The translations under genes and the position numbers were made by a program. The notes beneath the pieces were generated by a model, which had not been told where the DNA came from, did not search any database, and was given only the letters and a program-made list of their open reading frames with translations. Of a stretch of 64,000 nt of DNA, positions 33,451-35,553 are shown piece by piece (position 1 is the stretch's first letter; every line of letters starts with the position of its first letter). Source of the DNA: Algorimicrobium algoritergicola (GTDB taxonomy: Bacteria > Bacteroidota > Bacteroidia > Flavobacteriales > Flavobacteriaceae); the NCBI RefSeq assembly GCF_008086165.1, contig NZ_VSKL01000003.1:248001-312000 (forward strand), read 5' to 3'.

Positions 33451-34269
33451 ATGATTATAGTAAAAACAAGAGAAGAGATAGAATTAATGCGTGAAAGTGC
33501 TTTAATTGTATCTAAAACTTTAGGAATGCTTGCCAAAGAGGTAAAGCCGGGTGTTACCACATTGCAATTAGATAAATTGGCTGAAGATTTTATTCGGGAA
33601 CAAGCTGCTATACCTGGGTTTTTAGGTTTGTATGATTTTCCAAATACGCTTTGTATGAGTCCAAACTCGCAAGTTGTCCATGGATTCCCAACAAATGAAC
33701 CTTTGCAAGAAGGCGATATTATTTCTATAGACTGTGGTGCTATAAAAAACAACTACTACGGTGATCATGCCTATACATTTGCTGTTGGCGAAATAGATCC
33801 AGAAATTCAAACGCTTTTAGATGTTACCAAGCAATCTTTATATGAAGGGATTCGTGAATTTAAAGTTGGTAATCGTGTTGGAGATGTTGGTTATGCTATT
33901 CAAAAATACTGTGAAGACAGAGGTTATGGCGTGGTTCGTGAATTAGTAGGTCATGGCATAGGTCGTAAAATGCATGAAGATCCCGAAATGCCAAATTACG
34001 GCAAACGCGGTCGTGGTAAAAAGTTTATTGAAGGCCAAGTAGTAGCTATTGAACCTATGATAAACATGGGAACACATAGAATAAAACAACATCGTGATGG
34101 TTGGACCATTACCACTCTAGATAATAAACCATCGGCACATTTTGAGCACGATGTGGCTATTGTAGATGGGAAACCTGAATTGCTTTCTACGTTTGCTTAT
34201 GTTTATGATGCTTTAGGGATTGTGAGTGATGAGGAGGATGCGTTTAGACGTGAACCGATTGTGCTTTAA
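33451..34269 (+). CDS. map: Methionine aminopeptidase, type I
   Basis: MetAP removes the initiator methionine from nascent proteins. The dimetal ligands are visible in order: SIDCGA (Asp), YYGDHAYTF (Asp), VGHGIGRKMHEDPE (His), VAIEPMINMG (Glu) and a final Glu in HFEHDVAI. VVHGFP carries the substrate-pocket His. Length from ATG 33451 is 272. The gene ends 115 bases before a GxxExxY cassette. Confidence 0.96.
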   Translation: MIIVKTREEIELMRESALIVSKTLGMLAKEVKPGVTTLQLDKLAEDFIREQAAIPGFLGLYDFPNTLCMSPNSQVVHGFPTNEPLQEGDIISIDCGAIKNNYYGDHAYTFAVGEIDPEIQTLLDVTKQSLYEGIREFKVGNRVGDVGYAIQKYCEDRGYGVVRELVGHGIGRKMHEDPEMPNYGKRGRGKKFIEGQVVAIEPMINMGTHRIKQHRDGWTITTLDNKPSAHFEHDVAIVDGKPELLSTFAYVYDALGIVSDEEDAFRREPIVL

Positions 34270-34318
34270 CTATTGTGCGGAGATTCAATAATTGGAATAA
34301 ATGCTTTTACACTATTTT

Positions 34319-34790
34319 GACACGAATTTTACTAATTTGCACTAATGTTTGGAATCCAATTCTATAATGTTCAACAAAAAAACTATGTCGAATCTAATTT
34401 ATAAAGAAGAAGCTTATAAAATTATTGGCATATGTATGGAAGTGCATAATCAGCTTGGAAAAGGTTTTAATGAAGTAGTTTATTCTGATGCGTTAGAAAT
34501 TGAATTGATGGATAATAATATTTCATATTCGCGTGAAAAAAAATATGGAATTCTATATAAAGGGAATTTACTTCGACACAAGTATAAAGCAGATTTTATA
34601 ATTGATGACAAAATCGTTCTGGAGTTAAAAGCCGTTGAATGTTTGCATTCTGCGCACTTGAAACAAACGTTGAATTATTTAGCAGTCTCCAAGTTAAAGC
34701 TAGGTTTACTAATTAATTTTGGTGAAGAAAGTTTAAAATATAAAAGAATCGTTCTCTAACTGATTCGTGAAAATCCGTGAAATCTGTGTC
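34319..34790. repeat. Imperfect 24-bp inverted repeats bracketing the GxxExxY gene
   Basis: The left arm, 34319-34342 (GACACGAATTTTAC...), and the right arm, 34767-34790 (GTGAAAATCC...CTGTGTC), are inverted copies with 18 of 24 positions matching by eye. The right arm contains the start codon region of the next methyltransferase gene. CACGAATTTT-type strings are common intergenic repeats in Bacteroidetes and often accompany GxxExxY genes. This suggests the gene and its flanks move as one unit. Confidence 0.6.
34385..34759 (+). CDS. GxxExxY protein (PD-(D/E)XK nuclease-like)
   Basis: The 124-residue protein carries the naming motif GFNEVVY (about 25-31) after EVHNQLG. It also has HKYKADFIIDDKIVLELKAV, whose D...ExK pattern (about 68-86) is the nuclease-like core of this family. 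ATG 34385 is chosen to match usual N-termini; ATG 34367 is also open. Biological role is unknown. Placement between map and a methyltransferase, within inverted repeats, marks it as an insertion. Confidence 0.85.
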   Translation: MSNLIYKEEAYKIIGICMEVHNQLGKGFNEVVYSDALEIELMDNNISYSREKKYGILYKGNLLRHKYKADFIIDDKIVLELKAVECLHSAHLKQTLNYLAVSKLKLGLLINFGEESLKYKRIVL

Positions 34791-35553
34791 TAAAAATCTA
34801 TTCAAAAAAATCCTAAACACCATACCAAGACCAATCTTAATCCGATTGAGTTATGTAGCACGTCCTGTTTTAGCTTTTTTTATGAAAGGCGATACCTATA
34901 CAGATCCTATTGATGGCAAAAGTTTTAAATCGTTTCTACCATACGGTTACGGGAATCAGCGTGACAATGTGTTATCACCTTCTACCCTTTCTTTAGAACG
35001 TCATAGATTACTTTGGCTTTATTTACAAAATGAGACCAATTTTTTTACAGCTGAAAAAAGCGTGCTTCACTTTGCACCAGAACAATGTTTTTTAAAACGC
35101 TTCCAAAAACTTAATAACCTCAACTATACAACAACCGATTTAGAATCGCCAATTGCTGATGTAAAAGCAGATATTTGTAATCTTCCATTTGAAGATAACA
35201 GTTATGATATAATTTTATGCAATCATGTTTTAGAGCATATTCCAGATGACACCAAAGCCATGCAAGAATTATACAGAGTGATGAAACCAGGTGGTTATGG
35301 CATATTTCAGATTCCACAAGATTTAAATCGCGATAGCACTTTTGAAGATGATAGCATTACCGATAAAAAAGAACGTGCTGCCATTTTTGGACAATATGAT
35401 CATGTGCGAATTTATGGCCGTGATTATTTTGATAAACTCCGTAATATTGGATTTAAAGCTGAAGAAATGGATTACACAGCTAAACTTACCGATGGTGAAA
35501 TAGAACGCTATTGCTTGGCTAAAGGTGAGATTATTCCGGTAGTTTATAAATAA
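34777..35553 (+). CDS. Class I SAM-dependent methyltransferase
   Basis: The 258-residue protein has motif I in SVLHFAPEQCFLKRF (about 88-102), TTTDLESPIADVKADICNLPF, and NHVLEHIPDDTKAMQELYRVMKPGG, the classical Methyltransf_11 post-motif. The start is GTG 34777 or GTG 34786; both lie inside the right arm of the repeat flanking the GxxExxY cassette, so the native start may have been altered by that insertion. Substrate is unknown; the N-terminus resembles relatives annotated as SAM methyltransferases near surface-glycan genes. Confidence 0.82.
   Translation: MKSVSKNLFKKILNTIPRPILIRLSYVARPVLAFFMKGDTYTDPIDGKSFKSFLPYGYGNQRDNVLSPSTLSLERHRLLWLYLQNETNFFTAEKSVLHFAPEQCFLKRFQKLNNLNYTTTDLESPIADVKADICNLPFEDNSYDIILCNHVLEHIPDDTKAMQELYRVMKPGGYGIFQIPQDLNRDSTFEDDSITDKKERAAIFGQYDHVRIYGRDYFDKLRNIGFKAEEMDYTAKLTDGEIERYCLAKGEIIPVVYK

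Follow-up and report, generated by a model that had tools for sequence, protein, structure and literature searches.

GxxExxY genes framed by inverted arms of short tandem units: possible homing-like cassettes at operon junctions

Results

Organization of the GxxExxY locus

The locus lies in a 64,000-nucleotide stretch of DNA from Algorimicrobium algoritergicola (the window), between the genes for a methionyl aminopeptidase (map) and a methyltransferase (MTase). It comprises the following features.

33451–34269, + strand: map, type I methionyl aminopeptidase, upstream host gene (TIGR00500, 295.4 bits, cut-off 171.35)
34268–34287, + strand: degenerate CACAGAG-type arm outside the present cassette (agrees with the G112 arm, L050, from the same junction at 17 of 20 positions)
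34319–34347, + strand: left arm of imperfect units of about 9–10 nt, CACGAATTT type (21 of 29 positions complementary to the right arm)
34385–34759, + strand: GxxExxY gene, 375 bases, 124 amino acids, predicted minimal Cas4/RecB-type PD-(D/E)XK nuclease
TTG 34349 and ATG 34367, + strand: alternative in-frame upstream starts of the GxxExxY gene
34762–34790, − strand: right arm, the left-arm unit inverted, beginning 2 nt past the GxxExxY stop codon
34777–34788, + strand: MTase start candidates GTG 34777 and GTG 34786, both within the right arm
34786–35553, + strand: MTase, downstream host gene (PF08241, 60.4 bits, cut-off 21.2)

The central gene is a member of the GxxExxY family. It scores 142.8 bits against TIGR04256 (cut-off 35), covering profile positions 2–116 of 116, and 128.8 bits against PF13366 (PDDEXK_3; cut-off 22), and it is the sole match in its genome. 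Each arm is composed of about three imperfect units of 9–10 nt apiece. A preliminary description of this DNA had placed the gene between inverted repeats matching at 18 of 24 positions. This layout is confirmed, and the match becomes 21 of 29 once the arms are extended to 34319–34347 and 34762–34790. Local alignment of the flanks gives an arm score with p = 0.015 against dinucleotide-shuffled flanks, so that the arm pair of the window is by itself only suggestive. Since this value is not strong alone, the arms were tested across the gene family, and the family-level test makes the inverted arms firm.

The right arm spans the only plausible start codons of the MTase gene, as had been described. 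Both GTG codons are in frame, with a stop codon of that frame (TGA) ahead of them at 34768; the next possible start in the frame, a TTG at about 34846, is already within the conserved part of the protein. The assignment of the arms to a CACGAATTTT-type intergenic repeat did not hold: CACGAATTTT shows no enrichment in the window (8 matches with ≤1 mismatch versus 11.7 expected), and the arms are of many types rather than one. A longer arm pattern has eight matches in the genome, including the window locus, versus none for the reversed pattern, and three of the others (L004, L005, L006) are arm-like by eye. Rfam gave no match at E ≤ 1 in 34150–34900 and none at the gathering score in eight loci.

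The arm-like sequence at 34268–34287 is a possible trace of an earlier element at the map–MTase junction. Its likeness to a CACAGAG arm has an expectation of 0.01 in the window, for a pattern that was chosen post hoc, the likeness having been noticed beforehand.

Predicted structure of the GxxExxY protein

Conservation was assessed in an alignment of the window protein with 60 of 71 eligible proteins (61 in all). Invariant residues are G25, G27, E30, Y33, D70, E80, K82, Q94, Y98, N111, F112, and R121. Among 21 diverse Flavobacteriaceae-type proteins, D70, Q94, and Y98 are invariant, and E30, E80, and K82 are present in at least 90%, though not in all. The motif set GxxxE, D, ExK, and QxxxY characterizes RecB/Cas4-type nucleases.

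The AlphaFold model of the protein has a mean pLDDT of 92.7. In a Foldseek search, the only match at E ≤ 0.001 is 4ic1 (SSO0001, a Cas4; E = 5e-4), with a Z score of 10.0 over 98 residues. It is followed by phage-type exonucleases when ranked by E-value and, in a second structural comparison, by mixed nucleases of the same fold with Z scores of 6–8; the matches other than 4ic1 are thus of middling strength. Sequence search found no solved structure at E ≤ 1. The D…ExK signature of the PD-(D/E)XK superfamily lies on the fold (D70, E80, and K82, from the model and 4ic1). We model the protein as a minimal Cas4/RecB-type nuclease, an activity predicted from its fold and motifs.

The protein resembles Cas4/RecB nucleases in its predicted fold, in the GxxxE/D/ExK/QxxxY motifs, and in 4ic1 being its best solved match. 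In contrast to Cas4, it has only 124 residues, compared with 202–206 in the 4ic1 chains, and no conserved iron–sulfur cysteines. Cas4 proteins carry four conserved cysteines that hold an iron–sulfur cluster; no cysteine occurs in the invariant or near-invariant columns of the 61- and 21-protein alignments.

GxxExxY is under purifying selection. The pN/pS ratio is 0.08–0.18 in eight of nine pairs, with synonymous sites near saturation, and the ninth pair (0.74) consists of distant paralogues.

An assignment to an anti-phage system was considered and rejected: profile matches are weak throughout and comprise Cas4 types (E = 0.0003–0.008) and one reverse-transcriptase-associated nuclease model, the best E-value being 0.0003. 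Against PHROGs, the best match is phrog_5928, a group of unknown function, at E = 4e-5 for one and 0.0014 for another of three proteins; the remaining matches are weaker.

Inverted arms across the family

The Flavobacteriaceae-type set comprises 52 loci, namely 48 of 64 places, with 16 fragments, frame-broken, or truncated genes excluded, and four extra loci of the window's own genus. Inverted arms score better than shuffled flanks (p ≤ 0.05) at 41 of these loci, and at 32 the test reaches its floor (p = 0.005). When downstream flanks were ranked as partners of each upstream flank, the true one came first at 17 loci and had a median rank of 3 of 52. Control open reading frames of at least 100 residues at the same loci reach p ≤ 0.05 in one of 35 cases and never the floor.

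A second set was drawn from other phyla by taking 80 of at least 578 relatives; three (L183, L186, L189) were skipped for short flanks, leaving 77 loci. In this sample, 52 loci have p ≤ 0.05, with 44 at the floor. By record title, passing loci come from Planctomycetota (L128), Prosthecobacter (L138), Acidobacteria (L184), Tolypothrix (L192), Neomarinimicrobiota (L172), Chloroflexota and Anaerolineae (L187, L199, L202), and alpha- and betaproteobacteria (L177, L190, L149). The same phyla also contain failing loci (for example, L156, L179, L181, and L198), and the archaeal locus L125 fails too. Single phylum labels may be wrong, because many of the records are metagenome bins. Arms resembling those of Flavobacterium frigidimaris (L173) by eye are seen at L174, titled as a Rhizobium sp. 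metagenome-assembled genome; because of this resemblance, the bin is perhaps contaminated or the cassette recently transferred.

The preliminary description had proposed that the flanks of other GxxExxY genes be listed for conserved inverted ends. Such ends are found at most loci tested, in many phyla. No significant arms are detected at 11 of the 52 Flavobacteriaceae-type loci and at 25 of the 77 loci from other phyla, the latter among the matches listed. The arrangement can depart from a plain inverted pair: the direct-repeat score exceeds the inverted score in the flanks of 17 of 52 loci, and at some loci (L045, L073) a palindromic gene-less unit flanks the gene on both sides.

Arm dialects follow the protein

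The arms are built from several dialects of an 8–10-nt tandem unit, and the dialect goes with the protein. The main types are CACGAATTT and CACGGATTT (the class of the window), CACAGAGAT, CGCAAAGAC, CGCAGATTTCGCGGATT, ACGCAGATGACACAGATT, GTCTGAACC…GGATT, and GCCACGAATACACGAAT. We compared arm and protein distances by a Mantel test on the 37 of 52 loci with an arm score of at least 30, with 2000 permutations and hence a floor of p = 0.0005; some of the extracted arms contain host bases. The correlation is r = 0.60 over all 666 pairs and 0.59 over the 634 pairs between genera (both p = 0.0005). It is 0.46 (p = 0.0005) over the 571 pairs that are left when those sharing the map–MTase site are removed and those sharing other sites are retained. 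Among the matches listed for other phyla, r is 0.42 (n = 46, p = 0.001). Within genomes, protein and arm identity correlate with r = 0.47 (p = 0.046), over 18 pairs that are too few to lean on.

Self-similarity at offsets of mostly 8–10 nt is detected in 19 of 37 arms on the left and in as many on the right, compared with 2 of 52 and 6 of 52 in controls. Among the matches listed for other phyla, the period is significant in 14 of 44 and 21 of 44 arms. A tandem period in the single arm is thus significant in half of the arms or fewer. An outer ACCRC is present in both arms at 28 of 44 of the listed loci from other phyla, where it is common without being general.

The mismatches between paired arms were classified at 35 loci, selected by an arm score of at least 30 and 70% arm identity. 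They contain no excess of G–U over A–C type (43 versus 50), and the counts for the four-helix genes described below are 23 and 24. Selection on a stem in the transcript should favor G–U mismatches, and the lack of such an excess suggests that the arms act at the DNA level rather than at the RNA level.

The map–MTase junction in related genomes

The MTase region was matched in 55 of 60 genomes, and the state of the junction was read at 30 loci among these. Six junctions hold a GxxExxY cassette, 11 have abutting genes (computed gap ≤7 nt), five contain 27–156 nt with no cassette, and eight contain other DNA of 310–1188 nt. Because these eight relatives hold other DNA there, the junction appears to tolerate insertions in general.

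In the six genomes of the genus, the site is filled in G000, G003, and G004, abutting in G001 and G002, and occupied by other DNA in G005. Presence and absence at one site in close relatives, as for homing genes, is therefore observed (three filled, two abutting, one with other DNA). The preliminary description had named conservation of GxxExxY at this locus in all relatives, together with unconserved flanks at other GxxExxY loci, as an argument against its own reading, and the gene is in fact absent from the locus in some of them. The junction without a cassette, which it had proposed to compare, exists in G001 and G002, where the map stop codon TAA is followed by TA and then directly by the MTase ATG. 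Both checks that it proposed agree with its interpretation, which is supported in part. At seven of the eight filled loci with CACGAAT/CACGGAT arms, the GTG that terminates the right arm shares the frame of the MTase and falls at the start of that gene; the exception is G004, where a stop codon interrupts the GTG frame and a TTG farther downstream suits the MTase.

Fourteen of the 52 loci lie at the map–MTase junction, eight with CACGAAT/CACGGAT arms and six with CACAGAG arms. They carry two protein clades that are 32–43% identical to each other. We compared the identities of cassette proteins with those of the adjacent MTases, the latter computed over up to 180 residues. The two run in parallel (cassette/MTase) in G000–G152 (81/79%), G000–G004 (87/90%), G000–G024 (75/78%), and G000–G162 (66/70%). 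They do not in G089–G112 (86/78%) and G116–G032 (79/69%). Most pairs are as old vertical descent with loss would give.

Apparent replacement at this junction shows in three places. The cassette of G003 shares 73% identity with that of G000, a member of the same genus with 91% MTase identity, yet 82% with that of G161 and 79% with that of G097 (MTase 83% in both). In G004, a left arm of the G003 type remains outside the genome's own G000-type cassette, and in the window the arm at 34268–34287 lies outside the present one. No target-site duplication is recognizable by eye between filled and empty junctions.

A second junction, site use, and placement

A second junction lies between the end of an alanyl-tRNA synthetase-like gene and a GSCFA-like gene (both named by eye). 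For the GCAAAG type, G001 and G004 have a cassette with the gene and G005 has gene-less arms. G002 has gene-less CACAGAG-type arms, and G004 an additional gene-less CACGGAG-type pair. G000 and G003 have no element and a different downstream gene. The site is common to two loci of other genera (L049, L086). Sequence matching the flank of the G002 cassette is absent from the other five genomes of the genus, so that no empty site is readable there.

The 52 GxxExxY loci occupy 31 sites, and 25 of them are concentrated on only four (14, 4, 4, and 3 loci). Of 51 cassettes with readable neighbors, 48 stand in sense between co-directional genes, as do 29 of 30 four-helix cassettes and, among the matches listed, 53 of 69 cassettes from other phyla. 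The background for co-directional placement, taken from this one window, is 31 of 59 open reading frame calls.

Up to six matches are found per genome, fragments included. The highest identity between copies within one genome is 61%, in 14 genomes with at least two examined copies (fragments were not compared). Recent near-identical copies, as a transposon would leave, are therefore absent from these 14 genomes. Phage or plasmid cargo was also considered and set aside: a single query of one protein class (L123) found matches in none of 50,697 phage records and in six of 72,556 plasmid records. In these respects the cassette resembles neither a phage gene nor an insertion sequence that multiplies.

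Gene-less arms and arrays

Arms are also found apart from genes. In the six genomes of the genus, CRCNGAGNNNCRCNGAG has 18 matches versus one for the reversed pattern, CRCRAAGNCRCRAAG 42 versus none, and CACNRATTTNCACNRATT (≤1 mismatch) 38 versus eight; the counts of 18, 42, and 38 include overlapping matches and a few within gene-bearing cassettes. CACAGAG arms are thus present in the genus, although none of its six GxxExxY proteins is of the CACAGAG class. Of the 18 CRCNGAGNNNCRCNGAG matches, 12 were inspected in their surroundings, the rest being neighboring or at the second junction; for 11 of the 12, no strong inverted match lies within 750 nt. Some gene-less CRCNGAGNNNCRCNGAG arms sit between convergent genes.

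Different dialects also cluster. Among 18 loci with CACAGAG arms, several of them neighboring, 7 have a CRCNRATT arm within 300 nt and none has one at 300–1500 nt. Clustering is less clear for CRCRAAG arms, of which five are near CACAGAG arms and four far. Older arms would fit as candidate landing places for repeated occupation, which is compatible with the gene-less-arm data.

At C8:208928–209382 of G003, 16 partly overlapping GCAAAG-type matches lie on one strand in a repeat of about 50 nt, forming an expanded arm array. The genome of the window has a tandem duplication with a 214-nt period at C26:70959–71194 (L005, L006) that contains several dialects (CACGAATTTCACGG, CACGGAGTTGCACGGGAG). 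An intergenic site that is similar by eye and carries differing dialect mixtures is found at C22:280161–280254 of the same genome, at C69:341157 of G004, and at C10:304599 of G003.

Four-helix cassettes

Genes of the S23-type four-helix family TIGR02436 are present in 74 of 100 genomes of the Flavobacteriaceae-type set, with seven matches in the genome of the window. We examined 30 loci, which fall on 18 sites. Inverted flanks are significant (p ≤ 0.05) at 23 of them, 11 at the floor. The arms consist of other tandem units, for example AGTATTG or TTAGTTG, and their type again follows the protein (r = 0.71, n = 17, p = 0.001).

Ten of the 30 cassettes (L098, L104, L109, L110, L112, L113, L115, L116, L117, L122) share one junction, whose downstream gene starts like MKTAYIVKAYRTAVGKAP and appears thiolase-like by eye. 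Four others (L108, L111, L119, L121) lie between two parts resembling a split methionine synthase. Several matches contain a stop codon (L094, L095, L102, L107), including L095, the best-scoring one in the genome of the window, so decay may be frequent among four-helix genes as well.

Discussion

The gene–arm unit, the match of dialect to protein, the inverted layout at most loci, and the sense placement were all computed, as were presence, absence, and replacement at one junction, the dispersed gene-less arms, the nuclease fold, and the conserved active-site residues. The best reading, to which we give a probability of roughly 0.45, is a selfish DNA cassette of a homing-like kind, with slow turnover at operon junctions. 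The unit would consist of one small Cas4/RecB-type nuclease gene and inverted arms of imperfect 8–10-nt tandem units, the nuclease being specific for the arms or for a DNA structure on which it acts. The cassette would persist in sense at co-directional junctions, where host transcription could express the gene and no host gene is broken. It would spread rarely, by DNA cutting and recombinational copying into junctions that are empty or hold remnants of another element. Long inheritance would follow, until the gene is lost and only paired or single arms mark a junction that may be reoccupied.

The selfish or mobile character proposed in the preliminary description is consistent with the patchy presence, the gene-linked arms, the replacement at the same junction, and the gene-less arms; movement itself we infer, and recent multiplication within genomes is not seen. 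Much of the map–MTase pattern would equally fit vertical descent with loss. Two unrelated dialects at one junction count against homing, as this is unlike entry into one recognition sequence.

GxxExxY could instead be an accessory gene that serves the host, is inherited vertically and often lost, and has arms that act in the mRNA as an insulating stem or RNase III target. The sense placement (48 of 51, and 29 of 30 for four-helix genes), the purifying selection, and the parallel cassette and MTase identities in most pairs agree with this, and RNase III cuts the terminal inverted repeats of the S23-ORF intervening sequences in rRNA, according to PMC4990558. We nevertheless regard this alternative as unlikely. 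The equal share of G–U and A–C mismatches (43:50, 23:24) speaks against a purely RNA-level role of the arms, a stem needs no tandem unit, and the Rfam searches of these loci gave no match. Gene-less and single arms are moreover dispersed, also between convergent genes, and two protein clades with different arms occupy the map–MTase junction.

It is improbable, in our view, that the arms are an autonomous dispersing repeat, similar to minisatellites or TAACTGA heptamers, that disperses through replication or repair accidents and has caught small genes as passengers. The dialect tracks the protein in both families (r = 0.59 across genera, and 0.71), and other open reading frames are hardly ever framed (1 of 35). 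On the other hand, arm-pattern matches (18, 42, and 38, overlaps included) outnumber the six GxxExxY genes of the genus, tandem arrays such as that at C8:208928–209382 of G003 exist, and 17 of 52 loci have direct repeats next to the inverted ones. Two unrelated gene families also have this layout in common, and arms of different dialects occur near one another (7 of 18 CACAGAG loci with CRCNRATT at up to 300 nt; CRCRAAG five near, four far). A conventional transposon of the cut-and-paste or replicative kind, with terminal inverted repeats and the PD-(D/E)XK protein as transposase, would explain the gene between inverted ends, the MITE-like gene-less forms, and the up to six matches per genome (fragments included). 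A fast transposon is disfavored because recent within-genome copies are lacking (at most 61% identity in 14 genomes) and the single query matched only 6 of 72,556 plasmid records and none of 50,697 phage records. In addition, 25 of 52 loci fall on four sites and no target duplication is recognized. We regard this explanation as very unlikely.

The proposed homing-like cassette has parallels in known systems. RAYTs are Y1 HUH transposases associated with REP units, palindromes of 20–40 nt with many gene-less copies. As in REP/RAYT, short inverted repeats flank the gene and follow its protein, and gene-less copies are many. Unlike REP/RAYT, the protein here belongs to PDDEXK_3, a PD-(D/E)XK family, rather than being a Y1 HUH transposase, and the arms are made of tandem units on either side. 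With free-standing homing endonuclease genes, some of which are PD-(D/E)XK, the cassette shares an intergenic nuclease, a lineage-favored site, presence and absence, and decay after gain. We know of no matched inverted arms around free-standing homing endonuclease genes.

According to PMC4990558, the S23-ORF intervening sequence of 23S rRNA has terminal inverted repeats, is excised by RNase III, and carries three tandem heptamers before the open reading frame; the element is there called selfish, and its movement is left open. As described there, these sequences resemble the cassettes in having a small open reading frame within terminal inverted repeats, a patchy distribution, and few favored sites. 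The cassettes differ from them in lying between protein genes, as the window cassette does between map and MTase, in encoding a predicted nuclease, and in showing no RNA-pairing bias in the arms. The four-helix cassettes are intermediate, with an S23-family protein as in the intervening sequences, but at protein-gene junctions and with tandem-unit arms. TAACTGA heptamers, as described in PMC4679880, form direct intergenic arrays tied to possible translation control, with horizontal spread suspected and no mechanism given. They too are short tandem intergenic units in distant bacteria; the arms described here are in contrast inverted around a gene. We found no description of a gene–arm cassette in the open-access literature. 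That literature yielded no mention of PDDEXK_3 or TIGR02436, nor of the four helix bundle protein in connection with mobile intergenic repeats; GxxExxY is mentioned as a CRISPR-like call in a reverse-transcriptase annotation (PMC8934634).

A wider reading, tentative and with the odds somewhat against it, is that selfish "arm cassettes" are pan-bacterial and comprise small genes of at least two unrelated families (the Cas4-like GxxExxY nuclease and the S23/four-helix protein) with their own dialects and homing-like turnover, with the rRNA S23 intervening sequences as a branch. Such cassettes would reside in sense orientation between operon genes, and the gene-less arms they leave would make up short intergenic repeats. 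Because an S23-family protein has the same layout outside rRNA, the four-helix cassettes offer a clue to how the 23S rRNA intervening sequences arose. Several kinds of short intergenic repeat (the CACAGAG, GCAAAG, CACGAATT, and GGATT types) become tied to protein families, and GxxExxY, a family known by its motif name only, now has a defined genetic unit, a predicted enzymatic activity, and target sites open to testing.
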